From NCBI GenBank assembly GCA_948472945.1, contig CAOKVX010000017.1, positions 1 to 56,927 of the forward strand: DNA of 56,927 nt, written 5' to 3'. This DNA comes from an uncultured Clostridia bacterium. GTDB lineage: Bacteria > Bacillota > Clostridia > Lachnospirales > Lachnospiraceae. The notes beneath the pieces are model-generated. The model saw only the letters and a list, made by a program, of their open reading frames with translations. It did not search any database and was not told the origin of the DNA. The translations under genes were made by a program, and so were the position numbers. Of this stretch, positions 10,952 through 56,927 are shown one piece after another (within the stretch, counting starts at the first letter, position 1; every line of letters begins with the position of its first letter).

Positions 10952-10985
10952 GTAACTCCTCCTATACAAATACCTTATATGCAAA

Positions 10986-11091: not shown

Positions 11092-11096
11092 AACGC

Positions 11097-23451: not shown

Positions 23452-24198
23452 TTAATTAATTTCTTTTTTGCTGAATGTTAATGTCTTAAGCGAATCATAA
23501 TCAAATTTCTTCTCATCATTTTCAAAATATATTATTTTTACAAGCATTTCATTCATTATAAACGATAATATATTTTCAGTATCACTTTTTTCACTTTCCC
23601 TTTTTTCTAAAATACATTGAATCTCTTCCCCGCCTATTTGTATACTCCTTTCCGTATATTTATTTACGTCGTATTCATATCCTGTTTGAGGGTTATCTAA
23701 AATAGCTTCGCTGCTGTCACCGTAATCGTTTTCAATTTTTTGTTTTTGGTCAAGCTTAATATCATATTTTTCCTCCATAAATTTCTTTATATCTGTAGAA
23801 TCAAATCCCTCATTTGTTTCAGCATTAAGCGGCTCAATGACAACTCGTATCCCTGTTTCTAAAAATACAAAATTAATAAAATCAACATTTGAGTCCACAA
23901 ACACTCTGCCTGCTTTCTCTTTTTCCATTGAAGGACATAGTATATAACCATTATTATTATATTTCTCAATTAAATCCTTAAAAGCTCCGTCTTTAAATTT
24001 CTTTGATTCAGAACTGTTAAACCAATCCAGAAACTCATTTACCGATTCTGCCGAATAATTTACCGCCCTCTCACTTGGGCTATTGTTGCGGTTAATATTT
24101 TCTTTTTCTGCTGAAATATTTACTTTATCAATTTCCTTTTGACTGCACCCGCTAATAAACAATGTTATCACTATACATACCATAAATATTTTCTTCAT
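23452..24198 (-). CDS. Secreted lipoprotein of unknown function
   Basis: 248 residues. The signal peptide MKKIFMVCIVITLFISGCSQ ends in a lipobox (ISGC), so the mature protein is probably anchored by lipid on Cys17-18 to the outer face of the membrane. The rest is charged, with no domain I recognise; it has an alternating strand-like pattern (FVFLETGIRVVIEPLN). GGGGGAAA precedes the ATG. It starts 24 bases after the metalloprotease gene on the same strand, so the two are likely co-transcribed and may act together outside the cell. Confidence 0.83.
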   Translation of the reverse strand: MKKIFMVCIVITLFISGCSQKEIDKVNISAEKENINRNNSPSERAVNYSAESVNEFLDWFNSSESKKFKDGAFKDLIEKYNNNGYILCPSMEKEKAGRVFVDSNVDFINFVFLETGIRVVIEPLNAETNEGFDSTDIKKFMEEKYDIKLDQKQKIENDYGDSSEAILDNPQTGYEYDVNKYTERSIQIGGEEIQCILEKRESEKSDTENILSFIMNEMLVKIIYFENDEKKFDYDSLKTLTFSKKEIN

Positions 24199-24222
24199 AT
24201 TGTTTCCCCCTATATCTTCGTA

Positions 24223-25773
24223 TTAATGATGTGATTTTAAATGATTTTTTATATCTTCTAAGCACCCTGAACAAAATATCCTTTCAGGACTTCGAATAGA
24301 AATATCATTCATCCAACTATCATTCATAAGACAGAATTGTGGACGCCCCGAACTCGGATTGCAAGTTTTACACATTGTTCCGCCTCTACACGTACCATTA
24401 TTTAACATTTCGTGATAGTGATCCGGAGCTCCGTACTGATGTGCAAGCTCATGTGCTAAAACAGGTCTAATAGTCTTATAATAGTCTTGATTTAATATTT
24501 CCTGTATACAAACACCATTTAACGAAGAAAAACTTCTATTTATCTTATTTGTATTTTCAAAAAAAGCATTTCCTGTCCATAATACTGATGTTTTCGTATT
24601 GTTACCTTTATTATTATCATAAAAATTATAAAAAGAATTTGTCCATCCTGTACAATTTGGTTCATGACCTGCTCCCCCAGGACATTTTTGGTCAATTGTA
24701 CTTTGAGAAATAGTATATCCCCTTTTTAATTTACAGTTATCAGCTAAAGATGTTATAAGTGTTGGTGTATTATTAGCAATATCCAAGTTTACCGTCTTTT
24801 TAAATACCCTAGATATAATTTTGTTAGTATCTTGTATTTTTGTTGCACAATCTCCAATTGAGCCATATCTTACATTAAAAGCCTGATCATAATAATTGTT
24901 AACAACAGAACTAAAACATCTTCTTACCTTAAGTATATAATCACCAGTTTTAGTTACAGAATATGTTCTAACCTTGATATAATACGTCTTTCCAGCCTCT
25001 AAATTATACTTTATATAAAAATCACGTTTATTAGAGCTTATTCCCACGCCATTTCCATCATCATTCTTAGTCAGCTCATTGCCTGAATAATTATATAAAT
25101 GACCATACATATCAATATCTGTTTGCGATTCTATTGTATATGTACCAGTTTCCGGAGGAACAAACTTAAACATGTCTACATCTCCTCCATAATTAATTTT
25201 ACCCTTTATCGTCTCCTTATTCCCTATATTATATGCATGAGATATTTCATTTTCATAATCATCATTATATCTTATTATAAGTGTATAATTACCTGTATCT
25301 TTCTCGCCAACATTATAATTTTTTACTGCAATAAAATAATTTTTGCCTTTATTCAACCTATATTTAAAATAAAAATCATATGTATTTTGACTTTCTCCTG
25401 CATTATTTCCATCATCATTATACATTATCTGATTACCTGATGAATTATATAAGATTCCATATGAATCAAAATCGCTGATCATCTCAAAAGAATAAATTCC
25501 ATCCTTTGTAGGAGTATATTCAAACACATCGACATCTCCTCCATAATTAATCCTACCTGTTATCGTTTCTTGATTTCCTATATTATACGCTTTAGAAATT
25601 TCATTTTCATAATCATCATTCAACGCCGCTGTAAAATTTGCGCCAGCCGATACCTGAACGATTCTTGATTTTGCTTCAATCTGTTTTGGATTCATAATAA
25701 TCAGAAAACAAGCAAATAAACTTAAAAACACTAATGATAATACATTTTTTGATAGTTTTTTCATCTTACCCAT
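24223..25773 (-). CDS. Secreted metzincin-like zinc metalloprotease with two PPC domains
   Basis: 516 residues with a signal peptide (about 1-35, ending QIEAKS). Two tandem repeats follow (about 53-165 and 167-285), each beginning DDYENEIS and containing INYGGDVD and a TYY/NYF strand near the end; these match bacterial pre-peptidase C-terminal domains. The catalytic part (about 300-516) has HELAHQYGAPD, an HExxHxxGxxD zinc site, and a candidate Met-turn in CLMND. Several Cys follow (CRGGTMCKTC, CSGC). PPC domains usually sit at the C-terminus; here they precede the catalytic domain. It probably degrades extracellular protein; the target is unknown. Confidence 0.85.
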   Translation of the reverse strand: MGKMKKLSKNVLSLVFLSLFACFLIIMNPKQIEAKSRIVQVSAGANFTAALNDDYENEISKAYNIGNQETITGRINYGGDVDVFEYTPTKDGIYSFEMISDFDSYGILYNSSGNQIMYNDDGNNAGESQNTYDFYFKYRLNKGKNYFIAVKNYNVGEKDTGNYTLIIRYNDDYENEISHAYNIGNKETIKGKINYGGDVDMFKFVPPETGTYTIESQTDIDMYGHLYNYSGNELTKNDDGNGVGISSNKRDFYIKYNLEAGKTYYIKVRTYSVTKTGDYILKVRRCFSSVVNNYYDQAFNVRYGSIGDCATKIQDTNKIISRVFKKTVNLDIANNTPTLITSLADNCKLKRGYTISQSTIDQKCPGGAGHEPNCTGWTNSFYNFYDNNKGNNTKTSVLWTGNAFFENTNKINRSFSSLNGVCIQEILNQDYYKTIRPVLAHELAHQYGAPDHYHEMLNNGTCRGGTMCKTCNPSSGRPQFCLMNDSWMNDISIRSPERIFCSGCLEDIKNHLKSHH

Positions 25774-43795: not shown

Positions 43796-44083
43796 CTATA
43801 TCTTAAATAAATTCGGAAACGCCCTTTGAACCGCTGTAAAACCGCCATTTGCCGATAACGCCACAATCATCCCGTTAAACAGAATAAGTGCCGCGTCCGG
43901 CAGAGTCATACTCCCCGTGAAAAAATGTGCCGCATATAATATCGCAACGGCCACTATGTAACTCCACAGCTGTGTAGGAATCCGCTTGACTATTTTAATA
44001 TTCTTTGTCAGCTGCGTCACAACAACATCCATCGCCAACGCTCCGGCACACGTCGTCAGCGTCGTCCAGTTTACAAATTCCAT
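43796..44083 (-). CDS. Phage holin-like small membrane protein
   Basis: 95 residues from ATG 44083, with GGCGGGTG ahead; the longer frame upstream runs inside the amidase gene. Two or three hydrophobic helices are visible (TLTTCAGALAMDVVV, LWSYIVAVAILYAAHFF, AALILFNGMIVALSANG) and a short tail. Size and position directly after an amidase gene fit a phage holin, which opens the membrane so that endolysin can reach the wall. The family name is not certain. Confidence 0.75.
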   Translation of the reverse strand: MEFVNWTTLTTCAGALAMDVVVTQLTKNIKIVKRIPTQLWSYIVAVAILYAAHFFTGSMTLPDAALILFNGMIVALSANGGFTAVQRAFPNLFKI

Positions 44084-44084
44084 T

Positions 44085-44831
44085 TTATTCACCCGCCTTT
44101 GCAATTTCCGAATCAAGATATTTCTGCACAAGCTTCTTAAATTTCTTCCAGCGCCTAAGCGCCTTTTTTTGATTTGAACTACCGAATATATACGCAGGAC
44201 ACCACTTTTTGCCCGCAATCGGGTTAGTACACTGCCTGTCCACATCAGAAAATGTCTTGCCGGCAGAGTTATTTACCCAGTAGGTGTGCGTTACAAGCCT
44301 GTCAATTGGCAAACCGTGTTTCCACAACAGCCATGCCGCAATTCTCGCGCCGTTGTCCCTCGCCTTCCTGTCGTGAGCCTTTGTGTCATTCATGATTATT
44401 TCAATGCTAAGGCTTGTCAAGTTGCCACCGGAAGTAACGGAACTGTCACCAGCGTGCCACCCGGCCTCGGCGGAGCCTTCCCTATCATTTTTCGACTTTC
44501 CGGTCCCGGCTTTGAGGTTCTGCCACGCACATATATCATCTACAAAAAAATGTACTCTGGCAGATTTCATATTTTCATTATATGTTGCACGGGTATACTG
44601 CTCGCCGTCATCCCTTACATTTTTAATATCATCGGTATTATGTATAGTCACCCACAGCGGCTTTCCGGTGTTGTTTGTAAGTTTCTTTTGTTTTTTATAC
44701 AGCGCTCCTGCGCGGAACCCCGCCTTAGCAGCTTTAGATGAATTTTTCCACCTTGTCCCATCCGGTATTATTTTTTCATTTACCGTCACACCATTTATTT
44801 TATATGTATTATTAGGTTTTATCTGTGCCAT
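44085..44831 (-). CDS. Phage-type N-acetylmuramoyl-L-alanine amidase (endolysin)
   Basis: 248 residues; ATG 44831 has GGAGG 8 bases ahead, and a TTG at 44837 is too close. The amidase-2 fold is visible: WVTIHNTDD with the first zinc His, HFFVDD with strand residues, AGWHAGD, and LSIEIIMND; a later HTYWVNNSAGKTFSDV and KWCPAYIF complete the site. It cleaves the bond between MurNAc and the peptide stem in peptidoglycan. The holin-like gene follows after one base, so they form a lysis pair. There is no signal peptide, as expected for an endolysin. Confidence 0.9.
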   Translation of the reverse strand: MAQIKPNNTYKINGVTVNEKIIPDGTRWKNSSKAAKAGFRAGALYKKQKKLTNNTGKPLWVTIHNTDDIKNVRDDGEQYTRATYNENMKSARVHFFVDDICAWQNLKAGTGKSKNDREGSAEAGWHAGDSSVTSGGNLTSLSIEIIMNDTKAHDRKARDNGARIAAWLLWKHGLPIDRLVTHTYWVNNSAGKTFSDVDRQCTNPIAGKKWCPAYIFGSSNQKKALRRWKKFKKLVQKYLDSEIAKAGE

Positions 44832-45028
44832 ATTCAATTCCTCCCATCATTTCATTTACACAAACTTCGCATCATTTACTCAAACATTCAAATTTAACAT
44901 TTATAGTTTTTGTACAGAGCAAATTATAATTTTACTCAAACAAAAACTGTCTGAAACGTCAGCACTTGGCCTCGCATAGAGAAACATTAGAACTGCCTCG
45001 TATTAAGCTAAGGCGAATTTTAAGTTGT

Positions 45029-45533: not shown

Positions 45534-46082
45534 TTATTGCGCTAACTTCTTCTTTCCCTTGCTCATGACCTTAATAATAATAATGGTAAGTTTCCAAAGC
45601 AGCCAACCTATCATAAATAGTGCAACACCCATTAAAATAGAAATAGGAAGAAAAACAATGGCATTGGCAGAGTAAGCGCCAATGGTAAATCCAATTTCAT
45701 ATCCAAGTAAATGTGCAGCAAATTTAATAATACCGGCAATCGGGCTAAATACACCGCTTAACATAAATGCAATGCCGCAAATACTGGTAAACGGCAAAAC
45801 AAACATACCCCCGATACCCGCAAGGCTGTAAAAAGCAATTACCGTACTCAATCTGTGCCAGTTAAAACCGTTGCTTGAGGCAATCGCTTCTCCCAAATAG
45901 GCTTTTGCCAGATCTTTCGGATTACCTAACCGTTCAATAATCTGTGTCGGGGATACGCCTTTGCCCTGTAATTCAAGCATTTCACTTTTGATTTCTTTCA
46001 CAATATCCACACGCTCGGAAGCGACCAACGGTTTCAAATATTTCTCGATTTTTTCAAGATATTCATTCAAAGCTTTTTCCAT
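45534..46082 (-). CDS. HAAS/DUF1700-type membrane protein
   Basis: 182 residues from ATG 46082, with AAAGGAG upstream. The N-terminal 75 residues (EKALNEYLEKIEKYLKPLVA, EIKSEMLELQGKGVSPTQII, ERLGNPKDLAKAYLG) are the helical HAAS domain usually encoded next to PadR regulators. The rest has four membrane helices. Such proteins are thought to be regulated by, or to regulate, the PadR repressor gene next door; here padR ends 5 bases upstream. Confidence 0.88.
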   Translation of the reverse strand: MEKALNEYLEKIEKYLKPLVASERVDIVKEIKSEMLELQGKGVSPTQIIERLGNPKDLAKAYLGEAIASSNGFNWHRLSTVIAFYSLAGIGGMFVLPFTSICGIAFMLSGVFSPIAGIIKFAAHLLGYEIGFTIGAYSANAIVFLPISILMGVALFMIGWLLWKLTIIIIKVMSKGKKKLAQ

Positions 46083-46087
46083 TGTTT

Positions 46088-46420
46088 TTATTCTCCTTTG
46101 ATTTTGTTGATTGCATTTAATAAATTGTTCCATTCACCAGACATTGCAGAAATGTATTCAAGCCCTTTGTCCGTAACTGAATAATATTTCCTGGGCGGCA
46201 GCCCCTTGACACTCTCCTGCCATGAAGAAGAAATATATTCTTCTTTAAGTAACCGCCTAAGTAATGGATTGATTGTATTCTCTTTTGCAGCTAAGATAGG
46301 ATATTCTTCTAGTGTACTGATAATTTCATATCCATAAGATGGGCGCTGCTTTATCATTAACAGAATACAAAATTCAAGTGTTCCCCGTTTAATTTGGGAT
46401 TTCCAATCATCTATATTCAT
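46088..46420 (-). CDS. PadR-family transcriptional regulator
   Basis: 110 residues from ATG 46420, with AGGAGG ahead; a frame opening at 46471 lies outside a good site. Winged-helix motifs: GTLEFCILLMIKQRPSYGYE, NTINPLLRRLLKEEYISSSW and PPRKYYSVTDKGLEYI. It binds DNA as a dimer, probably at the perfect inverted repeat over its own start, and so may regulate itself and the HAAS gene. The Ser-Tyr-Gly helix and the RKYY wing are typical. Confidence 0.95.
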   Translation of the reverse strand: MNIDDWKSQIKRGTLEFCILLMIKQRPSYGYEIISTLEEYPILAAKENTINPLLRRLLKEEYISSSWQESVKGLPPRKYYSVTDKGLEYISAMSGEWNNLLNAINKIKGE

Positions 46421-46471
46421 ATACTGTACCTCCTGTATGTATATCGCACCGCACAGTATATGTTTTGTCAA
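46418..46471 (-). promoter_or_regulatory. PadR promoter with perfect 10-bp inverted repeat
   Basis: CATATACTGT (46418-46427) and ACAGTATATG (46453-46462) are perfect inverted copies, centre to centre 35 bases. One arm contains the padR start codon. TTGACA (minus strand, 46471-46466) touches the far arm; a weak GATATA follows. This fits an autoregulatory operator with two half sites. Confidence 0.6.
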
Positions 46472-46647: not shown

Positions 46648-46967
46648 TCATAGAAGAACTAAATTAATATTAATATTGTCACTATCCAAATTATATTTAG
46701 CATATATTATAAATGGGTCAATAGATTGTGTCCAATTTACCGGAACATCCATTATTAATAACTTAAAAATTCCACAAATTAATTTTACAAAAAAAAGTAA
46801 TATTATTCTCCAAAATTTTAAATAAATATCTTCTTTTGTATACAAAAATATTTCAGTTTTTATATTCTTTTTATATCGATTTCATCCCCGCCATATAATT
46901 CATATTCAACATCATCAATATTTCGATATATATTATCTCCATAATCTAGATTATATTTTATTTTCAT
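46648..46967 (-). pseudogene. Broken copy of predicted RHS immunity gene (type D)
   Basis: The ATG at 46967 opens a frame similar to the intact gene at 55260-55895 (KIKYNLDYGDN, DDVEYELYGGDEIDIK), but a TAA follows after about 30 codons and the frame changes. The second part (YTKEDIYLKFWRIILLFF, IIYAKYNLDSDN) also matches the intact protein, then ends about 100 residues early. So both a frameshift and a 3' truncation are present. It lies directly after the truncated RHS fragment at 46999-47331. Confidence 0.75.
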
Positions 46968-46998
46968 CTAACTCTCCTTCAATTATCAAAGTCAACTC

Positions 46999-47331
46999 TT
47001 ATTCCACACACTTCATCGTTGTTATTGTAAAGCGGTATGAGCGGGTTTCACATGTAAGCGTATGACCGAGATAGTTGAGCGGGTTTCTCTGGGCGTCGTA
47101 GGTAATGCTCTTGCTGCCAAATCCGATAAGCTGGTCTTTCCATGCCCCGGTGCTGTATGTGTATGTCACGCCGTTCTTTTTCTTGATGTTTCCGAGGTTA
47201 TCGTAGGTCATCTCATTGACTGTCACATTGTTACGAACTTCCCTGATGAGCTGGCCTAACAGGTCGTATGTATAGTGAGTATCGTTTACTATTACATCAG
47301 GGACCATGTCCTTGACTTTGATAATCCCCAA
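46999..47331 (-). pseudogene. Truncated RHS core fragment (cassette 5)
   Basis: 110 codons of RHS/YD repeats: DTHYTYDLLGQLIREV, MTYDNLGNIKKKNG and SITYDAQRNPLNYLGHTLT match the cores of the other cassettes. After LGHTLT the sequence jumps, with a deletion and a frame change, to the later core block LIPLYNN-DEVCGI, and then straight to GTTGACTTTGATAA, which is the leader of the immunity type D gene. The canonical RYYDP site and any tip are gone. This is a deletion remnant. Confidence 0.8.
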
Positions 47332-47398
47332 GTGTCAAAGCGAACAGACAAGCAAACAAACTTGTCCATCCACTTTGATATTTTACATTCTAACTGGT
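47325..47398. repeat. RHS cassette 5' boundary repeat, copy 1
   Basis: A stretch of about 70 bases with GTCAAAGCGAACAGACAAGC followed by ACTTGTCCA and TTTTACATTCTA is shared with 50816-50886. GACAAG and CTTGTC form an inverted pair (47345-47364). It marks the upstream edge of cassette 5. Confidence 0.6.
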
Positions 47399-47403
47399 CG
47401 CTA

Positions 47404-47715
47404 CTAATACTTTTTTACTGTATTAAAATATTTCTGTAAAGTATTTATAAGTGGGCTATCACAACAGAACATGGGCATGCCCATCATACTTAACCATGCT
47501 TTTTCGCTTTCTAATGAATCAAATCTATTAATCCTGCCACTTTCATAATACCCTTTTATTATATCCCCGTTTATATATGTATGAAGTCCTATACGAGTTT
47601 CATAATAATCATCAGAAAATGTAAATATCATATGCGGCTCCATCGCTCTCAGAGAATTGAATTTCCAAATAATATCTTGTTTTATTTCTGATGTTTTAAA
47701 TTTAAAAAATCGCAT
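47404..47715 (-). CDS. Predicted RHS immunity protein, type C short form
   Basis: 103 residues from ATG 47715 (AAAGGAAA ahead). The start RFFKFKTSEIKQDIIWKFNS is homologous to FFNFKTLQSKEDVIWKFNR of the genes at 47801-48235 and 53160-53585, as are RIGLHTYINGDIIKGYYE and the following RINRFDSL. The C-terminal membrane part of the relatives is missing, so it is a shortened or decayed copy. The family is unknown to me; the role is inferred from its place after RHS tips. Confidence 0.65.
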   Translation of the reverse strand: MRFFKFKTSEIKQDIIWKFNSLRAMEPHMIFTFSDDYYETRIGLHTYINGDIIKGYYESGRINRFDSLESEKAWLSMMGMPMFCCDSPLINTLQKYFNTVKKY

Positions 47716-47800
47716 AATGGGGTTTCCTTTCATTAAATGCGAGGGGTTCCTTTTGTTCATGTATTATATAATTGAGTGCCATAACACTTCAAAAAAGGAA

Positions 47801-48235
47801 TCATGACAATATTTCTGCCAAGCATCTATAAACCGGCTTCTCTTCATGATGCATTTCATAAATCATATACCCTAGACTAATAATACTCCAAATAAGACTC
47901 CTTTGATAAAGCGCCGGAATCAAAACAGAAAGTTCTACTGGTATAAATGCTGAAAATATAATCCCTTTAAATTGACATATTCCTTTCCTTTCAGTAAGCT
48001 TTCCACAAAACCATATTTTACCATTCGCTAAAGAACCTACCCTATTTAATCCTCCATCTTCATAATAACCTTTAACAATGTTTCCATTTACATATGTATG
48101 AAGTCCAATGCGGTAATCATTAAAACTGTCTAATAAATCAAAAATCATCTTATGGGGTTCTAACGCTATCAAACGGTTAAATTTCCATATGACATCTTCC
48201 TTGCTTTGCAGTGTCTTAAAATTAAAAAACAGCAT
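47801..48235 (-). CDS. Predicted RHS immunity protein, type C
   Basis: 144 residues from ATG 48235 (AAAGGGAA ahead). Residues 1-90 form a soluble domain with repeated strand patterns (LIALEPHKMIFDLLDSF, RIGLHTYVNGNIVKGYYE, KIWFCGKLTERKGICQFKG), and two hydrophobic helices fill about 95-140. The gene at 53160-53585 shares it, with the 5' 100 bases nearly identical and the 3' part diverged. A conserved hairpin lies upstream in both. Membrane location would suit protection against pore-forming tips. I know no named family. Confidence 0.7.
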   Translation of the reverse strand: MLFFNFKTLQSKEDVIWKFNRLIALEPHKMIFDLLDSFNDYRIGLHTYVNGNIVKGYYEDGGLNRVGSLANGKIWFCGKLTERKGICQFKGIIFSAFIPVELSVLIPALYQRSLIWSIISLGYMIYEMHHEEKPVYRCLAEILS

Positions 48236-48317
48236 ATCGGACTTCCCTTTCGTCTCATAAAAAATATATTGACTGTCACGCCATATAGCGATGATATTTA
48301 TTGCATTTACCATTGTT

Positions 48318-48346
48318 AATAGGGAAAAGAAATTTTTTTCCCTATT
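48318..48346. other. Conserved hairpin ahead of immunity type C, copy 1
   Basis: AATAGGGAAAA (48318-48328) pairs perfectly with TTTTCCCTATT (48336-48346). The same hairpin with matching flanks lies at 53673-53701 before the other type C gene. It may be a terminator separating tip and immunity transcripts or a regulatory leader. Confidence 0.6.
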
Positions 48347-48436
48347 AAACTAAGTTAACTATTATAACCTTTGAACAAAATTATTTGCATTATATTTTTT
48401 AATAACTATACAAGAGGAAACATAAATCCATTTGGT

Positions 48437-48847
48437 TTAAGTATTTCGTCCCAACCAAACTATCTCCACAAATATAAATAAAGCCTTAAAGAAAATAGTA
48501 TTTTTTAATACCTTTATAATAAGAAGAAGATATTTATTATCCTCATATCCTTTTATCCTATGCTTTAGCTTATATATTGTATGATAGCATAAAAAAGCAT
48601 ATATAGAAATAATGATTACTATTAAAAAAAATTCAAAATCTACATCAAGATTTAATGGAGAAAGATAACTCCCCAAAAAATAAAACATTATAATATCGTA
48701 AAAACAGCTTATGTATAAACATAAAGATTTTTTCCTATACTCTTTTTTAGATAAATTTATTTCGTCAGGTAATTTATTTAGTTTGTCAATACCTAATAAT
48801 GCAATAAAAAAAGATAAAGATAAAAATATTAATTTTACAATAAACAT
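48437..48847 (-). CDS. Four-helix membrane protein in RHS array
   Basis: 136 residues from ATG 48847, with GAGG 12 bases ahead; a TTG at 48865 would start inside that site. Four membrane helices are seen (FIVKLIFLSLSFFIALLG, SLCLYISCFYDIIMFYFL, FFLIVIIISIYAFLCYH, ILKNTIFFKALFIFVEI). No family recognised. It lies after another membrane protein gene and before an immunity type C gene, so an immunity role is possible. Confidence 0.6.
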   Translation of the reverse strand: MFIVKLIFLSLSFFIALLGIDKLNKLPDEINLSKKEYRKKSLCLYISCFYDIIMFYFLGSYLSPLNLDVDFEFFLIVIIISIYAFLCYHTIYKLKHRIKGYEDNKYLLLIIKVLKNTIFFKALFIFVEIVWLGRNT

Positions 48848-49005
48848 ATTCAGTACATTCCTCAATATTATTTTTAATTATTATTACACTTTATTTTCGT
48901 CCGTTTTTTCTAAAGATTCGGATAAAAAAATACTTTTATAGAGTGTTCCCAAAGAATATTATAACTTCAGGAACACCCCCCATTTCACCTTACCAACGCC
49001 ATTAT

Positions 49006-49434
49006 TTAAAAACCAACTTCACCAAACACCAAAACAATCCATCCAAATATAACAGAAACTGTTATGGCAGATATTAAAGCTGTTATAAACAAAAAATATT
49101 TCGGAACACCATTATATTTTGTAGCATCACTATACCAGCCTTTCAAAGATTTCGTATCATATCTTGAGAAAACCAAATATAACACTATTGTTAATAAAAT
49201 ACATATAACAGCCACCATGCCTATAATATAAGAATTTTTAATCATCGCATGCCTGAAAAGTAAAATACATGAGATAAGTGAAGGTAGAGCACTAACCCAT
49301 GACAACATATATGTTCGGTTATCAATTATATTTTTCTTTGCATTATTTTTCTGCATAAAAATCATGAAAAAAAATAAATTAGAAAATAATAAACCAGTTA
49401 AAGCAATAGAAACAATTTCATAGTTTGAAAACAA
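49006..49434 (-). CDS. Membrane protein after RHS cassette 4, possible immunity
   Basis: 142 residues starting at TTG 49434, since GGGAGGTGAT lies 5-6 bases ahead; the frame itself extends to 49482. Four membrane helices are visible (IVSIALTGLLFSNLFFFMIF, SWVSALPSLISCILLF, IIGMVAVICILLTIVLYLVF, FLFITALISAITVSVIFGWIVLV). I recognise no family. Its position after a hydrophobic RHS tip, with the same direction, suggests it protects against that tip (inference). Confidence 0.65.
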   Translation of the reverse strand: MFSNYEIVSIALTGLLFSNLFFFMIFMQKNNAKKNIIDNRTYMLSWVSALPSLISCILLFRHAMIKNSYIIGMVAVICILLTIVLYLVFSRYDTKSLKGWYSDATKYNGVPKYFLFITALISAITVSVIFGWIVLVFGEVGF

Positions 49435-49711
49435 AATATCACCTCCCTCTTTAAATTCAAAGCCATAAGCAAAACTCCACACATCTAGTATTTATGTAGC
49501 ATTGCGAGGCACTGCAACCTCTCTTATCACTCGTTGACGCAGTCACTACTCATTCAGTTATTTTCGTAAGTTTTAGATTTACGTTTGCTTTGCTATGCTA
49601 CAAAACCGCTACTTTTCAATTTATGGAAGCTGACTGCCAAGTCCTACCTTTAAATCAATGCGTTTTGCTTATCTCTCTAAATTCATTCTTATTTCCATAG
49701 ATATACGCCAC
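49435..49711. other. Gap between cassette 4 tip and its neighbour
   Basis: No gene is supported in this gap. It contains short stop-rich frames and no clear hairpin. It may be decayed sequence from an earlier cassette. Confidence 0.3.
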
Positions 49712-50413
49712 TTAGAAAATTATAGATACTCCCCCTATCCATTTTAAATAGTATTTGCATCCTTTATTCTTTTTTACACTGTAATATAACATTTTTACAG
49801 CATCATAAACTGTCGGCAATATATAGCTCTTTACAAACTGAAGCACAATCATACCCACACTTAGAACCCCTGAACAACAAGCCATAAAGAAAGTTAAAAT
49901 ACCAGACATCATTGCAACAACTGCTCCTACATTGCATATACATGCTATCACTTCACTTGATAAATATGATGAAGCATATGGAAGTGCTGTGACAATTGCC
50001 GTTGCCATTTTGCTATTATCAAGAAATTTATATATGTCCTTTACATCTTTAACAATATATTTCAATTTTAATATTATTGTCGCAATTCCCAAAATAGCTG
50101 CTGCTACACTTGATAACTTTATTGTCAAACCTTTCCATGAAATACTTATTATATCTTTTATTGTTCGAAAAATTCCCTTTAAAGAAAAATTACCATCAAC
50201 ATCAAAATTATTGCTAGCATCATTACCACAATATGTATACAAATTACAATCCATCATATCAATAATAAATTTTAGTAGTTCAGGCTGATCACTATTCACA
50301 AACCTGCCCACAGCCGGGTCGTAGTACCTTGACTGCAGATAATACAGCCCCGTCTCACTGTCATAGTAATAACTCCTGTACCGGAACGGATTAATCGACG
50401 CTATCTTTTCCAC
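49712..50413 (-). CDS. RHS C-terminal tip, cassette 4 (hydrophobic)
   Basis: Translation from GTG 50413 gives the end of the RHS core (INPFRYRSYYYDSETGLY, LQSRYYDPAVGRFVNSDQ, LYTYCGNDASNNFDVDGNFS) and then about 165 residues of variable tip. The tip is hydrophobic, with helices at AAAILGIATIILKLKYIV, VIACICNVGAVVAMMSGIL and CSGVLSVGMIVLQFV. It looks membrane-active. The frame upstream ends at a TAG at 50603-50605. Whether GTG 50413 is a start is unproved, as no good ribosome site is present. Membrane protein genes follow. Confidence 0.75.
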   Translation of the reverse strand: MEKIASINPFRYRSYYYDSETGLYYLQSRYYDPAVGRFVNSDQPELLKFIIDMMDCNLYTYCGNDASNNFDVDGNFSLKGIFRTIKDIISISWKGLTIKLSSVAAAILGIATIILKLKYIVKDVKDIYKFLDNSKMATAIVTALPYASSYLSSEVIACICNVGAVVAMMSGILTFFMACCSGVLSVGMIVLQFVKSYILPTVYDAVKMLYYSVKKNKGCKYYLKWIGGVSIIF

Positions 50414-50820
50414 CGTTGTGTCACTTATTCCCTTGCATACACCCCATGCATCGTAGGTGTACTCCGCAACGCATCTGCTTCTCGAATCCGTAATGCTTAT
50501 TACGTCGCCCTGAAGATTCTTTAGGAAATAGTAGGCGGTTCCGTTATATTTTATTCCGCATACCTCATCTTCGTTATTGTAAAGCGGTATGAGAGTGTTT
50601 CCCTAGGCGTCGTAGGTAATGCTCTTGCTGCCAAATCCGATAAGATGGTCTTTCCATGCCCCGGTGCTGTATGTGTATGTCACGCCGTTCTGAGGTTGTC
50701 GTAAGTCATCTCATTGACTGTCACATTGTACGAACTTCTTTAATAAGCTTGCCTAACGGGTCGTATGTATAGTGAGTATCGTTTACTATTACATCAGAGG
50801 CCGTGTCCTTGACTTCCGAT
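50414..50820 (-). pseudogene. Damaged RHS core of cassette 4
   Basis: Compared with cassettes 2 and 3, a block of about 170 bases is missing: ITYDA joins directly to GNTLIPLYNN, and the joining codon is TAG (50603-50605) where CAG (Gln) is expected. Further upstream about 17 bases are deleted near 50687. The direct-repeat-like GN on both sides of the junction fits recombination. The core cannot be translated through. Confidence 0.8.
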
Positions 50821-50886
50821 AATACCCAAATATCAAAGCGAACAGACAAGCAAGCTTGTCCATTCACTTTATATTTTACATTCTAC
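50816..50886. repeat. RHS cassette 5' boundary repeat, copy 2
   Basis: A stretch with TATCAAAGCGAACAGACAAG and TTTTACATTCTA matches 47325-47398. GACAAGCAAGCTTGTC (50845-50860) is a perfect palindrome here. It marks the upstream edge of cassette 4; beyond it the sequence is unrelated. Confidence 0.6.
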
Positions 50887-51030
50887 TTAGTATAAATAAC
50901 CGATGGTCCAAAGTACAAAGTTTTATTTTTTATTCTAATGACATAAAATAACTAAATAATAACTATTTTTTATAAATAGTGTTTATAGAACTTAATTGTA
51001 CATCTTATTCAAAAAGTAATAAATTGTAAA
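50887..51030. other. AT-rich gap between cassettes 4 and 3
   Basis: No gene or clear repeat is seen. The stretch separates the boundary repeat of cassette 4 from the type E gene. Confidence 0.3.
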
Positions 51031-51690
51031 CTATTTACGATTTTTGTAAAAATGAAAAATAAAATCTTTCGACAAGTAATTATAAAATTCTGTCTTATCA
51101 TCATCCATTTTAAATACCCTTTTAATTAACTTATTCCATACTTTTTCTATAAACAAATTCACTACTATAATAGATGTATAAATAATCAAAAAATAAATCA
51201 ACGAAATATCAATACCATAAGTAAATAATAGATAAATTCCGAAAGCTATCAATAAAAAACCTGATTTACTTATTAAACACATCAAAGGATAAAATACAAA
51301 AAAATCAGCTCTCCATGATTTATTAAATATACTTATTATGTCCTTTTCACCAAATACACTGTATGAGTCAGGCATAATAGTTACTGCATTTATTTCCAAA
51401 TATAGCCTTTCAAAATAAATGTTATGATTTATTTGATCTTTTTCACAGGATATTCTTATTACTTCCCCTTCATTATAATTAGCTATACTATATTGTGTAT
51501 TAATTTCAATAATATATTTGCCCTTATTTTTATAACTTTTTTTATCTCTATGTATTGAAAAAGTAATTTCTCTATTTTCTCCGCCAAGTATTGTTATATA
51601 ACCATATGGCTGTATTTTATTTATTCGCTCCTTTGAATCTAAAAAAATTTCCACAACATAATTACAATTATTAAAAAAATTGATTTCCAT
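51031..51690 (-). CDS. Predicted RHS immunity protein, type E
   Basis: 219 residues with AAGGAG ahead of the ATG. The N-terminal 115 residues are strand-rich (NYVVEIFLDSKERINKI, GYITILGGENREITFSI, NHNIYFERLYLEINAV) and are followed by two or three membrane helices (FFVFYPLMCLISKSGFLL, LIAFGIYLLFTYGIDI, IYFLIIYTSIIVVNLFI) and a charged tail. This layout resembles the type D protein at 55260-55895 but sequence similarity is low. It follows the cassette 3 tip gene by 39 bases. Immunity role is inferred. Confidence 0.7.
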   Translation of the reverse strand: MEINFFNNCNYVVEIFLDSKERINKIQPYGYITILGGENREITFSIHRDKKSYKNKGKYIIEINTQYSIANYNEGEVIRISCEKDQINHNIYFERLYLEINAVTIMPDSYSVFGEKDIISIFNKSWRADFFVFYPLMCLISKSGFLLIAFGIYLLFTYGIDISLIYFLIIYTSIIVVNLFIEKVWNKLIKRVFKMDDDKTEFYNYLSKDFIFHFYKNRK

Positions 51691-51729
51691 TCATTTACTC
51701 CTTAATTATCATACGATTGTTTATACAAT

Positions 51730-52992
51730 TTAAACTTTAATCATAAGATAGTCATCCCATTTCCCATCCATCAAATCCAAAAACAAAGCAATAAAACCAC
51801 CTACAGAAGAAAATGCCGAAACAATACTACCTATTTTTTGAAACAGTACATTTTTTAATGAAATAACATTATATAAAAATCCTTGAAACAAACTTCCAGA
51901 CATAGTTCCAATCGCTCCTGGTCTGCCGACAATTAAAAGACAAACCTTCACAATTGCCCATAGTGCAAATCTCCCCAGTTGTTTTTCAAAGAAGAAATTA
52001 AACAATGTTCCAATAAATGAATTAGCGATTTTTTTACTTTTTAATAGGATTTTCATTGCTAATTTTATTCCTCTGTAAATTAATCCATTTGTCAAGCATA
52101 CAATAAGTGTATCAATTGCAGCTGCTGCTAATGTCGTACTCAGCATAAATGCTTTCTTAGATTTGTCATAATATATAAGCCCTTTTAAATAATCTTTAAT
52201 TTTATTAGTTATCTTATCTAAAATATCACTTATAAAAGACAATACTGAGTTTAATGACAAAAATCCTTCATAATCTACATTATCAACTGGATTATTCTCG
52301 CAATAGGCAAATAAATTACATGATAAAACGGATGCATCTATTCCTAAACATTCAACATCATCCGCATTCACAAACCTTCCCACAGCCGGGTCGTAGTACC
52401 TTGACTGCAGATAATACAGCCCCGTCTCACTGTCATAGTAATAACTCCTGTACCGGAACGGATTAATCGACGCTATCTTTTCCACCGTTGTGTCACTTAT
52501 TCCCTTGCATACACCCCATGCATCGTAGGTGTACTCCGCAACGCATCTGCTTCTCGAATCCGTAATGCTTATTACGTCGCCCTGAAGATTCTTTAGGAAA
52601 TAGTAGGCGGTTCCGTTATATTTTATTCCGCATACCTCATCTTCGTTATTGTAAAGCGGTATGAGAGTGTTTCCTCCCCATTTCTCAGAAAGGATTTTCG
52701 TTCCGTCAAGCCTGTAGCTGTGTGCCGTTCCGTTAACATTCTTTCCCGTACGTATTCCGTTAGCATTGTACGTGTAAGTGTTGGAGTCGAATTTCTTGAG
52801 CTGCCTTCCCTTTTCCCATGTAAGCGTATGACCGAGATAGTTGAGCGGGTTTCCCTGGGCGTCGTAGGTAATGCTCTTGCTGCCAAATCCGATAAGCTGG
52901 TCTTTCCATGCCCCGGTGCTGTATGTGTATGTCACGCCGTTCTTTTTCTTGATGTTTCCGAGGTTATCGTAGGTCATCTCATTGACTGTCAC
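51730..52992 (-). CDS. RHS core fragment with hydrophobic C-terminal tip, cassette 3
   Basis: 420 residues from GTG 52992; the frame itself runs open to about 53140. The first 225 residues are RHS/YD repeats (YDNLGNIKKKNG, SITYDAQGNPLN, RLDGTKILSEKW) ending at RYYDPAVGRFVNADD and NLFAYCENNPVDNVDYEG, the usual border before polymorphic tips. The 185-residue tip is hydrophobic with several helices (AAAAIDTLIVCLTNGLIY, LWAIVKVCLLIVG, VGGFIALFLDLM). The end resembles that of cassette 1 (SVGGFIA). It has no signal peptide, so it is a displaced tip, not a secreted full-length protein. Confidence 0.85.
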   Translation of the reverse strand: MTVNEMTYDNLGNIKKKNGVTYTYSTGAWKDQLIGFGSKSITYDAQGNPLNYLGHTLTWEKGRQLKKFDSNTYTYNANGIRTGKNVNGTAHSYRLDGTKILSEKWGGNTLIPLYNNEDEVCGIKYNGTAYYFLKNLQGDVISITDSRSRCVAEYTYDAWGVCKGISDTTVEKIASINPFRYRSYYYDSETGLYYLQSRYYDPAVGRFVNADDVECLGIDASVLSCNLFAYCENNPVDNVDYEGFLSLNSVLSFISDILDKITNKIKDYLKGLIYYDKSKKAFMLSTTLAAAAIDTLIVCLTNGLIYRGIKLAMKILLKSKKIANSFIGTLFNFFFEKQLGRFALWAIVKVCLLIVGRPGAIGTMSGSLFQGFLYNVISLKNVLFQKIGSIVSAFSSVGGFIALFLDLMDGKWDDYLMIKV

Positions 52993-53080
52993 ATTGTTAC
53001 GAACTTCCTTGATGAGCTGGCCTAACGGGTCGTATGTATAGTGAGTATCGTTAATTACTACATCCAGAACCGTGTCGTCG
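52370..53080 (-). repeat. RHS core repeat, cassette 3 reference copy
   Basis: About 710 bases are nearly identical to 54383-55090 (cassette 2) and, where present, to 56592-56927 (cassette 1), 50297-50800 (cassette 4, with deletions) and 47022-47320 (cassette 5, with deletions). The core is GC-richer than the AT-rich tips and immunity genes. Near identity shows recent duplication or gene conversion. Confidence 0.9.
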
Positions 53081-53159
53081 ACTTTGATAATCTCACCTTT
53101 AATGCTCGCACAAATTCTGCTGAATGTTTTGCACGTAATAATACTTCATATCATAAAAC

Positions 53160-53585
53160 TTATGACATAATTTCTTCTAAACAATCATACACTTTCTTCT
53201 CGTTATATAACACATAAATTATATAAAATAATAAAAAGACAGACTCTAAAGGTTCCAAGTAATAAATATGTTGGATTATTATAACTATTCCCAAAATAAT
53301 TGTGGAAGAAACTATTATCCCTTTAAATTGACATACTCCATTTCGTTCAATAAGCTTACCATAAAACCATACTTTAGCTCTTACCAGCGAATCTCTGTAC
53401 AATCCTCCACTTTCATAATACCCTTTCACCTTATCTCCATTTATATATGTATGAAGACCTATACGATTATCATTATAACCTTCATAAAAAGCAAATATTT
53501 TATGGGGTTCTAACGCTATCAAACGGTTAAATTTCCATATGACATCTTCCTTGCTTTGCAGTGTCTTAAAATTAAAAAAAAGCAT
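53160..53585 (-). CDS. Predicted RHS immunity protein, type C
   Basis: 141 residues from ATG 53585, with GGAAAG ahead. The N-terminal domain (FFNFKTLQSKEDVIWKFNRL, RIGLHTYINGDKVKGYYE, GVCQFKGI) matches the gene at 47801-48235, and two hydrophobic helices follow (IVSSTIILGIVIIIQHIYY, SVFLLFYIIYVLY). The first 100 bases are nearly identical between the two genes, while the 3' parts have changed. It follows the cassette 2 tip gene by about 160 bases, with a hairpin in between. The role is inferred. Confidence 0.7.
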   Translation of the reverse strand: MLFFNFKTLQSKEDVIWKFNRLIALEPHKIFAFYEGYNDNRIGLHTYINGDKVKGYYESGGLYRDSLVRAKVWFYGKLIERNGVCQFKGIIVSSTIILGIVIIIQHIYYLEPLESVFLLFYIIYVLYNEKKVYDCLEEIMS

Positions 53586-53672
53586 ATCGTACTTTCCTTT
53601 CGACTTATAAAATATATAATTGCCTGTCACACCATATATCGAAGATATTTTTTGCTTACCATTGTTAATGTT

Positions 53673-53701
53673 AATAGGGAAAAGAAATACTTTTCCCTAT
53701 T
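53673..53701. other. Conserved hairpin ahead of immunity type C, copy 2
   Basis: AATAGGGAAAA (53673-53683) pairs with TTTTCCCTATT (53691-53701). It lies between the cassette 2 tip stop and the type C gene; the same structure occurs at 48318-48346. Confidence 0.6.
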
Positions 53702-53747
53702 AAACTAAGACAACTATTAGAACACTTGAACAAGATTATTTGCATTA

Positions 53748-55007
53748 TTATACAACTAATTGTACAAATTTAGGAATTAATGGAATCAGCATTGTTCCGG
53801 CAGAAACTGCAGACGCACTTATTGCCGTAATAACTGATGCAACAAACGTACTTAAATACGGAGCCGCTGCACAACCCACAACAAGAGCTGCCGCCGTCAA
53901 ATGTGATACACTCAACTCAATTGTTATGGCACGCGTAACATTTGAATTATATATCGTTTCCGACCATCCACAATTCATATATGTCTTTCTCCAGTTAATT
54001 CCACCACCAATAAAAAAACTCACTTTTTGATTTATGCTAGACGAAATGGTAACTTCCAATGCACTTTCATCCAGCAATATTCCAATAATACCATTTGTGT
54101 TTGTGTTTCCTGACAAACCAACTTTAATTGTTAAACTGACGCCAAGAAATCTGCCGTCAAAAATAGTTTTTTCTTTAAAAAGTCCCATATATACATTAGG
54201 AATCATTTTCTGTACAAATTCAGATAACCATTTAGACGCATTAAGCAAATTTCCATTCTTAACAACCTTTTTCTTTTTATTTCCAGTATCATCTATATAA
54301 TTTATTGGGTCATTATCACAGTTCGCATAGAAATTATAGCTTAAAACACTGCTGCCTAAATTTAAAAATGTCACATCATCCGCATTTACAAACCTTCCCA
54401 CAGCCGGGTCATAGTACCTTGACTGCAGATAATACAGCCCCGTCTCACTGTCATAATAACTCCTGTACCGGAACGGATTAATCGACGCTATCTTTTCCAC
54501 CGTTGTGTCACTTATTCCCTTGCATACACCCCATGCATCGTAGGTGTACTCCGCAACGCATCTGCTTCTCGAATCCGTAATGCTTATTACGTCGCCCTGA
54601 AGATTCTTTAGGAAATAGTAGGCGGTTCCGTTATATTTTATTCCGCATACCTCATCTTCGTTATTGTAAAGCGGTATGAGCGTGTTTCCTCCCCATTTCT
54701 CGGAAAGGATTTTCGTTCCGTCAAGCCTGTAGCTGTGTGCCGTTCCGTTAACATTCTTTCCCGTACGTATTCCGTTAGCATTGTACGTGTAAGTGTTGGA
54801 GTCGAATTTCTTGAGCTGCCTTCCCTTTTCCCATGTAAGCGTATGACCGAGATAGTTGAGCGGGTTTCCCTGGGCGTCGTAGGTAATGCTCTTGCTGCCA
54901 AATCCGATAAGCTGGTCTTTCCATGCCCCGGTGCTGTATGTGTATGTCACGCCGTTCTTTTTCTTGATGTTTCCGAGGTTATCGTAGATCATCTCATTGA
55001 CTGACAC
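53748..55007 (-). CDS. RHS core fragment with C-terminal tip, cassette 2
   Basis: 419 residues from GTG 55007; the frame is open up to 55172 but has no earlier ATG, GTG or TTG. The 225-residue RHS core is nearly the same as in cassette 3, but one Tyr codon is missing (RSYYDSETG). After RYYDPAVGRFVNADD and NFYANCDNDPINYIDDTG a 190-residue tip follows: a basic start (KKKKVVKNG), a strand-rich middle (GVSLTIKVGLSG, KVSFFIGGGINW) and a very hydrophobic end (AAALVVGCAAAPYLSTFVA, VITAISASAVSAGTMLIP). It differs from the other tips. A type C gene follows. Confidence 0.85.
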   Translation of the reverse strand: MSVNEMIYDNLGNIKKKNGVTYTYSTGAWKDQLIGFGSKSITYDAQGNPLNYLGHTLTWEKGRQLKKFDSNTYTYNANGIRTGKNVNGTAHSYRLDGTKILSEKWGGNTLIPLYNNEDEVCGIKYNGTAYYFLKNLQGDVISITDSRSRCVAEYTYDAWGVCKGISDTTVEKIASINPFRYRSYYDSETGLYYLQSRYYDPAVGRFVNADDVTFLNLGSSVLSYNFYANCDNDPINYIDDTGNKKKKVVKNGNLLNASKWLSEFVQKMIPNVYMGLFKEKTIFDGRFLGVSLTIKVGLSGNTNTNGIIGILLDESALEVTISSSINQKVSFFIGGGINWRKTYMNCGWSETIYNSNVTRAITIELSVSHLTAAALVVGCAAAPYLSTFVASVITAISASAVSAGTMLIPLIPKFVQLVV

Positions 55008-55259
55008 ATTGTTATGAACTTCCCTGATAAGCTGGCCTAACGGGTCGTATGTATAGTGAGTATCGTTTACTATTACATCAGGGGCCGTGTCCTTATATTC
55101 CGTAACCCTTGTGATTCTTTCCTCATTATAATACGTAAACTGAATTACAATGAATCCAAAGCTTATCTGAAACTACTATAATGTATTAATCTGTTTAATA
55201 TTATAAAAAATATAATAACAAAGTTTCATTAATACTATATATTCAAATATACCCTCTAT
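55008..55259. other. Edge of cassette 2 and gap to type D gene
   Basis: The RHS-like reading continues to about 55140 (QFTYYNEERITRV and DTHYTYDPLGQL). Beyond it, to 55259, AT-rich sequence without a gene leads to the end of the type D gene. The boundary differs from those of cassettes 3, 4 and 5. Confidence 0.5.
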
Positions 55260-55895
55260 TCAGTTTTCCTTATTAGCAGCACCCATTATTCTTTTCAAAT
55301 TGTTATATTCTTTCAATAACTTAAAAACAACAGGCACAGAAATAACTAACATTATTGAAATTAAAATAATAGATTTTAGTATGTCTAATCTCGAACTTAT
55401 AAAGATAATTCCTAAAGGAATGCATGAATATACCCATATTGAAATTAAATCCAAACAAAAATTTAAATATCCAAATTTAATTTTTTCCAAACATAAACTC
55501 ATATTTAAATCTATTAATTCACCATTGATTAATAATTTAGGGCTTATAAATTTAAACATATCTTTAGTAATTCTGCCTGGTATATATTTAATATTAATAT
55601 AGTCACTTTTCAAATTATATTTTGCATATATTATATATGGGTCAATAGATTTTATCCAATTTCCCGGGACATCCATGATTAAAATCTTAAAAATTCCACA
55701 AATTAATTTTCCAAAAAACAATAACATTATTCTCCAAAATTTAAAATTAATATCTTTTTTTGTATATAAACGTATTTCTGTATTTATTATATTATTTTTT
55801 ATATCAATTTCATCTCCTGCATATAATTCATACTCAAAATCATCAATATTTAAGTACATATTATCTCCATAATCTAGATTATATTTAATTTTCAT
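55260..55895 (-). CDS. Predicted RHS immunity protein, type D
   Basis: 211 residues with AAGGAG before the ATG. The first 50 residues are strand-rich and acidic (NLDYGDNMYLNIDDFEY); one hydrophobic helix (about FWRIMLLFFGKLICGIFKIL) lies near residue 60, and two more are near the end (LISIWVYSCIPLGIIFI, IILISIMLVISVPVVF). A broken relative is at 46648-46967. It follows the cassette 1 tip gene. I recognise no family; role inferred from position and membrane segments. Confidence 0.7.
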   Translation of the reverse strand: MKIKYNLDYGDNMYLNIDDFEYELYAGDEIDIKNNIINTEIRLYTKKDINFKFWRIMLLFFGKLICGIFKILIMDVPGNWIKSIDPYIIYAKYNLKSDYINIKYIPGRITKDMFKFISPKLLINGELIDLNMSLCLEKIKFGYLNFCLDLISIWVYSCIPLGIIFISSRLDILKSIILISIMLVISVPVVFKLLKEYNNLKRIMGAANKEN

Positions 55896-56052
55896 CTAAA
55901 ACTCCTTCATTTATCAAAGTCAACTATATTAAAGAAAGCTATAACTATCTTTATCTAGAAATGCACTGAAAAAATTACAGATAAATTTTTTCAGTGCTTA
56001 TTGACTGATTATTTATAATAATACTATAACAATAATTACCCTACTTTTAAAT

Positions 56053-56927
56053 TTACCATTCAATTGGAAAAGTTATTCTATTATCTAATTTTTTATCTGT
56101 TAGTATATCTAATAATCCTGCTATAAAACCTCCTACAGATAAAAAAATAGTAATATTTGAAGCTATTAAGTTTAGTATAAAATTAAATATTCCCGATGTT
56201 GTCGCACTAGCTATAGACCGACTAATTTTAGCCACATCAATCTTTTTTGCCCATTTCTTTCCCCAAAATGGAATCTTTATAATAATATTCTTGATAGTAT
56301 TAAGTACATTGAAAGATATTTTTGCCACATACTGTATTAACTTTGCTAATGGTGTATATACTTTCATTTTTAATGTAATACCTGCAAATTTTCTTGCAAA
56401 AGATTTTATAGGTGCTAAAAATGGCGATATCTGCAGTAAAAGTATATCTAATGGTATTGAAATTATAGCTCTAGGAATACTAAAATATCCTGTAAAGTCT
56501 ACATTACAAATTGGATTATTACATGAATATGCAAATAAATTATAACATATCGCATTATTACCAATACTTAAGAATATAGCATCATCCGCATTCACAAACC
56601 TGCCCACAGCCGGGTCGTAGTACCTTGACTGCAGATAATACAGCCCCGTCTCACTGTCATAGTAATAACTCCTGTACCGGAACGGATTAATCGACGCTAT
56701 CTTTTCCACCGTTGTGTCACTTATTCCCTTGCATACACCCCATGCATCGTAGGTGTACTCCGCAACGCATCTGCTTCTCGAATCCGTAATGCTTATTACG
56801 TCGCCCTGAAGATTCTTTAGGAAATAGTAGGCGGTTCCGTTATATTTTATTCCGCATACCTCATCTTCGTTATTGTAAAGCGGTATGAGCGTGTTTCCTC
56901 CCCATTTCTCGGAAAGGATTTTCGTTC
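56053..56927 (-). CDS. RHS core fragment with hydrophobic C-terminal tip, cassette 1 (5' end beyond window)
   Basis: The frame is open from the window edge, so the gene starts upstream. It reads KILSEKWGGNTLIPLYNN, DEVCGIKYNGTAYYFLKNLQ, EYTYDAWGVCKG and then RYYDPAVGRFVNADD, with NLFAYSCNNPICNVDFTGYF at the border. The 155-residue tip is hydrophobic (IISIPLDILLLQISPFLA, IFNFILNLIASNITIFLSVG) and ends VGGFIAGLLDILTDKK, similar to cassette 3. It could be a displaced tip like the others or the end of the full-length parent gene; this cannot be told here. Confidence 0.85.
   Translation of the reverse strand, partial: TKILSEKWGGNTLIPLYNNEDEVCGIKYNGTAYYFLKNLQGDVISITDSRSRCVAEYTYDAWGVCKGISDTTVEKIASINPFRYRSYYYDSETGLYYLQSRYYDPAVGRFVNADDAIFLSIGNNAICYNLFAYSCNNPICNVDFTGYFSIPRAIISIPLDILLLQISPFLAPIKSFARKFAGITLKMKVYTPLAKLIQYVAKISFNVLNTIKNIIIKIPFWGKKWAKKIDVAKISRSIASATTSGIFNFILNLIASNITIFLSVGGFIAGLLDILTDKKLDNRITFPIEW

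Follow-up and report, generated by a model that had tools for sequence, protein, structure and literature searches.

The stretch of DNA analysed here (hereafter the window; 56,927 nucleotides, contig C17 of an uncultured Clostridia bacterium of the family Lachnospiraceae) carries on its minus strand an array of fragments from an RHS polymorphic toxin system. C33 and C6 denote other contigs of the same genome (2.68 Mb, 37 contigs). As the first-pass annotation had noticed, five fragments of one RHS core lie in a row, within 46.6-56.9 kb, and all five were located. They are fragment A (56590..56925), cut on its 5' side by the contig end and 99% identical to copy C over 265 nt; fragment B (54384..55134), with one codon missing; fragment C (52366..53092); fragment D (50294..50823), with two internal deletions; and a truncated fifth copy (46999..47326). 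Core alignment puts the matching stretches of the five copies at 56663-56927, 54454-55107, 52439-53092, 50367-50823 and 46999-47326, and Rhs_assc_core was recognised in all four of copies A-D (copy A: TIGR03696, E 5.8e-18). The open frames of B, C and D begin inside the core, without an N-terminal export region.

Copies A-D run to RYYDPAVGRFVN, after which each continues into a tip of its own and is followed by a different small gene. The claim of an invariant site joined to changing tips and small genes thus holds for these four copies and fails for the fifth, a tipless remnant that has no junction and is fused to a remnant of the immA region (46664..46997, 87% identical in nucleotides to 55588-55925). 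When the five array copies are aligned with the full-length C33 gene, A, C and D agree at 240/240 of columns 540-779, just before the junction, and so does B except for its missing codon. Past the junction, pairs of A-D agree at 29-36 of 60 bases, counted over 60 columns from 10 columns after the tip start. Could core identity and tip divergence have arisen together by chance? Such an origin is excluded. The 240-column identity of the cores points to recent duplication, or to gene conversion with homogenisation, inside the array, and recombination or duplication within it is well supported. The G+C content drops from 45-46% in the cores to 27-35% in the tips, and the small genes have 21-33%.

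The tips comprise 178 amino acids in tip A (56053..56589), 211 in tip B (53748..54383), 211 in tip C (51730..52365) and 193 in tip D (49712..50293). Tip B shares 75% identity with the tip that the full-length C33 gene encodes, and tip C is 30% identical (E 5e-26) to the tip of a full-length, 1640-amino-acid RHS protein in G003, a genome of the same genus. Tips A and C share 25-26% identity (E 2e-10), partly through a linker common to all RHS tips; because these two look like one distant family and B and D stand alone, the four tips make three families. About the first 34 tip residues form this linker, and because it is common to RHS proteins the tip A/C profile hits 21 of 397 family genomes at RHS junctions, in most cases through this post-junction segment alone. 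With tblastn, tip C had no match among plasmids and phages. Structure models of the tips were too poor for a fold search (mean predicted local distance difference test of 36.6 for tip B, modelled from its single sequence, and 32.4 for tip C with tip A).

That all tips are strongly hydrophobic, as first noted, is borne out. The grand average of hydropathy (GRAVY) of tips A-D is 0.35-0.64 (0.61, 0.59 and 0.64 for A, C and D), or 0.34-0.64 with the C33 tip included, and the tips stay hydrophobic with their first 34 residues removed. Among 40 RHS tips from the retrieved loci, the five of this genome fall in the top eight by hydrophobicity. The other 35, a convenience sample, have a median of -0.12, with 4/35 at 0.3 or above (Mann-Whitney p 0.0009, which is optimistic because tip B and the C33 tip are related).

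The small genes behind the tips are immA (55260..55895, 211 amino acids), a putative immunity gene by its position, with three transmembrane-like segments; immB (53160..53630, 156 amino acids, one such segment), 61% identical to the gene after the C33 RHS gene; and the likewise putative immunity genes immC (51031..51690, 219 amino acids, two segments) and immD (49006..49482, 158 amino acids, four segments). By hydropathy alone, every untruncated partner gene encodes a transmembrane-like segment. Their position fits that of linked, specific immunity genes. Profile scans assigned no credible Pfam, NCBIfam or PADLOC family to the partner genes of A-D. Note that the type VII toxin TspA, for example, has a membrane immunity protein. 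Because hydrophobic tips are paired with membrane partner proteins, we infer that the tips may attack the membrane of competing bacteria, by pore formation or depolarisation.

Behind immD follow a further small membrane protein (48437..48865, 142 amino acids, four transmembrane-like segments), possibly an orphan immunity protein, to which scans with PADLOC and Pfam gave no credible family; a copy of the tipB-immB spacer (48314..48393, 90% identical in nucleotides to 53669-53748); an immB paralogue without a tip (47801..48313); and a truncated one, likewise tipless (47404..47760). The spacer copy suggests a trace of a lost module of the tip B type. Promoter-like sites in the array number 71 against 58.5 in shuffled sequences (standard deviation 7.8) and terminator-like sites 2 against 4.0, and given these counts separate immunity promoters are not claimed.

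The full-length RHS gene and modules in relatives

Does the genome also carry a full-length RHS gene to which such fragments could belong? On C33 there is one, encoding 1986 amino acids (L023:9022-14982) with RHS repeats and Rhs_assc_core, so one of the two situations that the first-pass annotation had named as fatal to its claim is not found. Because this gene has a tip homologous to tip B and is followed by a gene of the immB family, it is well supported that the array consists of displaced tip-immunity modules of a real RHS polymorphic toxin system. Another RHS gene of the genome, on C6, shows no more than a distant relationship to it (26%).

The end of C33 cuts a second immB-like gene, and that of C17 cuts a core repeat. 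Joining the two contigs by synteny with the sister genome G005 was tried and failed, as the neighbourhood is rearranged and the contigs of G005 break there. The C33 core and the array core are 87% identical over 619 nt, with 63-97% per 60-column window (columns 120-779).

The C33 core is matched in three of ten genomes of the genus, namely this one, G003 and, weakly, G009. G003 also has orphan modules behind another RHS gene, one that bears a signal. On its contig C27 (L043:810-5729), the full-length RHS gene with a tip related to tip C has four N-terminal DUF4379 treble-clef stretches in place of the usual N-terminus. In the wider family, the single-contig genome G241 presents a full-length gene, an immunity-like gene, a holin, an orphan core-tip fragment, an immunity-like gene and a holin, in repeating order. 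Orphan modules downstream of full-length RHS genes occur in G110 as well as in G003. In G110, a 2528-amino-acid frame (L094:8555-16141) has a start like that of a sensor with multiple transmembrane segments and runs into an RHS gene with a signal-like stretch of its own; this is either a fusion or a pair of overlapping genes.

Missing export signals and neighbouring lysis genes

The first-pass annotation had likened the array to orphan tip-immunity modules behind RHS/WapA toxin genes. The layout of core, tip and small gene and the existence of a full-length gene of the same lineage agree with this likeness; the Sec signal of WapA does not appear. Here, Sec signals were called by a hydropathy rule (a hydrophobic run) rather than by SignalP. 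The C33 frame opens only four codons upstream of its ATG and shows no hydrophobic N-terminal run, and therefore its protein lacks the Sec signal that defines WapA. Consequently, export of the WapA type, which is contact-dependent, cannot be assumed. A Pfam scan of the protein (E 0.01) gave RHS_repeat and DUF6531 only, with no cell-wall binding or anchoring domain, no PAAR, and no LXG, WXG or other domain of the type VII secretion system.

The N-terminal region of the C33 protein matches 36/397 family genomes, and the signal-less N-terminal profile (A4) matches 22/397 family genomes and 18/392 in the order sample. Searches with A4 gave 55 places, 45 of them with a signal-like run, one off the contig edge (G507 C29) and nine with no such run ahead of the match. 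Six genomes hold seven of these nine as complete or nearly complete genes (G000, G034 twice, G035, G127, G219 and G241), and the other two are short frames (289 amino acids in G713, 216 in G689 C9). No further long signal-less gene came from running the N-terminal profile on 392 genomes of the order or on 378 relatives of G127, where the hits had already turned up in the earlier samples. With the same profile and a longer G127 query, no relative was found in the IMG/VR contigs. In a collection of phage records, a related N-terminus occurs on three fecal contigs, all unverified, and one of the three lacks a signal. In the latter (L231, MT836326), the RHS gene is split over several frames, and no lysis gene was recognised in 11 kb. 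A phage or mobile origin is possible, judging from these records. The N-terminus of G127 is matched in 45 plasmid records; the one examined among these plasmids, from Priestia, has a signal-bearing gene and no lysis gene annotated within 10 kb. In addition, an IMG/VR contig classed as viral (L229) has an RHS toxin gene near a serine-recombinase-like gene and is possibly another mobile element.

Lysis genes stand near several signal-less RHS genes. In G127, the RHS gene, an immunity-like gene, a holin (PF05105, E 2.4e-33) and an Amidase_2 gene (2.9e-19) follow one another with overlapping ends. In G034, the order is RHS gene, immunity-like gene, orphan module, immunity-like gene, holin (2.6e-20) and Amidase_3 gene (7.7e-20). 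In the stretches inspected in G127 and G034, no phage structural genes were recognised by eye. G241 has three holin copies between orphan modules (9e-32, 5e-33, the third truncated) and holins only.

A same-strand lysis gene lies downstream in 3/5 signal-less loci versus 0/19 signal-bearing loci (Fisher about 0.005, calculated by hand). Full-length RHS genes entered the count if 1.5 kb or more of sequence followed them, and a lysis gene was counted if a holin or hydrolase occurred on the same strand within 8 kb downstream or up to the end of the retrieved sequence. The detector consisted of seeds from the positive loci and a few motifs. Left out were C33, G219, the second G034 gene, G003 C27 and others (all with less than 1.5 kb downstream), G507 C29, the short or repeat-poor frames of G048, G400, G039, G117 and G713, and the orphan-only loci of G111 and G140. 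G256 and G153, whose signal sits in a split upstream frame, were scored as signal-bearing, and L231 was scored against the link. The motifs also flagged two sites, near G707 and G708, which by eye resemble Hint domains. Eight small membrane genes, seven of them behind signal-bearing loci and one behind the G035 gene, were checked with Pfam, and none was a holin.

A divergent pair of a helix-turn-helix gene and an IrrE/ImmA-like peptidase gene (Peptidase_M78) stands upstream of three signal-less RHS genes, those of G127 and G241 and the second one of G034 (L132:2886-3829, L137:2450-3273 and L093:4740-5953); in G034 the peptidase match falls short of the curated cut-off, and one small gene intervenes in G241. 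We take such pairs to resemble the control circuits of integrative and conjugative elements and of phages.

In G035, two copies of an endolysin gene are interspersed with the array on C57 (L095), each within a copy of a 1764-nt repeat (99.1% identity). This repeat with its endolysin gene flanks an orphan RHS module on both sides.

In the genome under study, an endolysin and an XhlA-like gene are found beside the array, not beside the full-length gene. The cassette, in XhlA-endolysin-holin-like order, begins 1.3 kb past the array and has the same orientation, in keeping with the relatives. It is composed of an XhlA/hemolysin-like phage protein (45029..45319; phrog_937 'hemolysin', E 1.8e-7, no Pfam family), a phage endolysin of the N-acetylmuramoyl-L-alanine amidase type (44085..44837; PF01510, 5.8e-11; phrog_15001, 5e-48) and a small membrane protein in holin position (43796..44083), a weak candidate matching phrog_18218, of unknown function, at E 1.4e-4. 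The endolysin is 73% identical to one on two viral contigs. By eye, the gene order at the holin position matches the viral contig L226, with no sequence match for that gene there. Between array and cassette stand, also on the minus strand, a PadR regulator (46088..46441; PF03551, E 3.3e-17) and a HAAS-domain membrane protein (45534..46133; PF22564) that has no homologue in nine other genomes of the genus; as far as known, neither is part of the system.

Array and cassette sit at a rearrangement point relative to G005, where (C109/C139) the diguanylate-cyclase-like gene found beside the cassette (window 43586) adjoins bipA instead. Elsewhere in the window, recognised by eye, are a lipoprotein-like gene and, beside it, the gene of a secreted protein in which two domains are repeated and a HELAH motif resembles that of metallopeptidases (23452-25773), and a type I restriction-modification-like gene set (7793-14968).

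Interpretation of the array and of the lysis genes

Taken as a whole, the array is probably a reserve of displaced RHS toxin-immunity modules. The small membrane proteins would block the tips. The orphan fragments would be silent as toxins, and their immunity genes would shield the cell from siblings or neighbours armed with those tips. Through the core repeats, modules could be duplicated, lost and homogenised, and a full-length gene could obtain a new tip. It was proposed from the outset that these repeats allow tips to be exchanged by recombination; duplication or homogenisation is seen inside the array, and a recent swap onto the C33 gene does not emerge.

Several points weigh against this interpretation or against its extension to the lysis genes. 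A recent tip swap with the known full-length gene is not supported: as the windows between the C33 core and the array core vary from 63 to 97%, against identity over 240 columns within the array, the two show no recent exchange of this region. Adjacency of C33 and C17 is possible, and the placement of the full-length gene next to the array is unproven; because the contigs break between them, the lysis link is unproven for this genome as well. PadR and HAAS genes separate the array from the cassette, and the latter may be a prophage remnant that has nothing to do with it. Profile searches, which the first-pass annotation had advised for each tip, gave none of the tips a credible Pfam, NCBIfam or PADLOC family. 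In the PDB, neither profiles A1 and A2 nor tip D had a sequence match at E 1, and the low-confidence model of tip B consists mostly of predicted strands; pore formation thus has no family, solved relative or usable model in its favour. The lysis link itself is small and post hoc, its hypothesis came from the same data and its detector was seeded from the positives. Two of the five signal-less loci (G035 C111 and L231) have no cassette, and no lysis gene lies within 8.9 kb of the signal-less G035 gene. The controls G203 and G305, as well as L231, have less than 3.4 kb downstream, the distance of the G034 cassette, and therefore a cassette could be missed in them. Finally, the G035 array may belong to another RHS gene, because the similarity between its cores and the signal-less gene of that genome is limited to 98 nt at 71%, and this weakens the reading of a lysis system.

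How, then, would a toxin without a signal leave the cell? We tentatively propose, as a possibility that falls somewhat short of probable, that the signal-less full-length toxin leaves its producer via a phage-derived holin/endolysin step. Still possible, though rather less than probable, is an ordinary WapA-type system, with export by Sec or another standard route and with the nearby lysis genes as a chance prophage remnant. The 45 signal-like places among the 55 found with the N-terminal profile would agree with it, as would the resemblance of the window cassette to phage endolysins, its separation from the array by two unrelated genes and the two signal-less loci without a cassette. However, the C33 frame has no room for a signal peptide, the holin and amidase of G127 and G034 lie in a same-strand run after the toxin modules among which no phage structural genes were recognised by eye, and the holin of G241 is repeated with the modules. 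The larger proposal built on the holin/endolysin step is a lysis-released antibacterial RHS system, in which signal-less toxins would carry membrane-active tips, the cassette would be part of the module and recombine with it, and the array in the window would be the reserve. We regard this full combination as doubtful. If it held, polymorphic RHS toxins of Gram-positive bacteria would be deployed in a colicin-like and possibly damage-induced manner.

The array might instead be a decaying graveyard, with leftovers of module replacement that have no present role save perhaps spare immunity. The deletions in D and in the fifth copy, the loss of the tip from the latter and the truncated immA and immB remnants point in this direction, but four tips and their partner genes are open frames and the 240-column core identity points to recent duplication or gene conversion, so decay as the whole account is rather unlikely.

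Typical nuclease immunity proteins are not membrane proteins. The hydrophobic tips could nevertheless serve a different kind of toxin, such as a nuclease, as linker or translocation segments, given that no family could be assigned to them and that the poor model of tip B is mostly strands. This is improbable, as the tips stay hydrophobic without their first 34 residues and the untruncated partners are membrane proteins. Type VII export of the signal-less main protein, as for LXG toxins, is very improbable: the missing signal peptide and the predicted type VII effector LrhA, an RHS protein beside WXG100-like genes (PMC12704120), would suit it, but the Pfam scan of the C33 protein gave no LXG or other type VII domain and no small helical partner genes were recognised by eye beside the signal-less loci.

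Relation to known systems

The orphan rhs-CT/rhsI modules of Salmonella and other enterobacteria consist of a core fragment, a tip and an immunity gene, are described as lacking start and export signals, belong to a full-length rhs gene and can fuse their tips onto it by recombination (PMC3967940). The array resembles them in its core fragments, tips and small genes that belong to a full-length gene. Unlike them, it has four modules together with tipless immunity-like genes, its tips are all hydrophobic and its adjacency to the main gene is unproven; in addition, the C33 gene encodes no Sec signal and no PAAR in the Pfam scan. WapA has a Sec signal peptide and a potential wall-anchoring domain (PMC12704120). 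The C33 protein is like WapA in being a YD-repeat protein with an RHS core, a variable C-terminal tip and a small gene behind it, but it has neither the signal (by hydropathy) nor the anchoring domain (by Pfam).

Among known toxins, Tse5 is a pore-forming Rhs tip (PMC10684867), and TspA, TelE and EsxX are membrane-depolarising type VII toxins (PMC7456083, PMC10434224, PMC12744356). The tips of the array would share with them a C-terminal, membrane-depolarising activity, proposed here from hydropathy; the delivery platforms are different, and no sequence similarity of the tips to solved structures was found. In type 10 secretion, the Tc toxin of Yersinia entomophaga, which has an RHS-type C component, is released via phage-derived holin/endolysin genes (PMC10847048). 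TcdE of Clostridioides difficile is another example, with TcdA and TcdB as cargo without signal sequence (PMC12150058). The large signal-less protein on C33 is similar as a candidate cargo; a holin and a hydrolase are encoded with RHS in the relatives G127 and G034. However, the known examples are anti-eukaryotic, whereas the system here is presumably antibacterial, with immunity genes, and the G241 holin is repeated with each toxin-immunity module.

How RHS/WapA proteins of more than 300 kDa cross the Gram-positive cell wall was 'not definitively identified' as of 2025 (PMC12704120). Our literature search, at title and abstract level for nearly all papers, found no description of RHS toxins released by lysis genes. 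The array is, on its predicted gene products, a further case of orphan RHS modules, unusual in its all-membrane set of tips, and it exemplifies a membrane-toxin-only reserve with tipless immunity-like genes. The signal-less main gene, together with lysis genes in some relatives, suggests a variant with release by captured lysis genes. If this is true, lysis genes travelling with the toxin module would constitute an export route for signal-less RHS toxins, would account for the holin genes between toxin modules, and would connect polymorphic toxins both with type 10 secretion and with lysis of the colicin kind.

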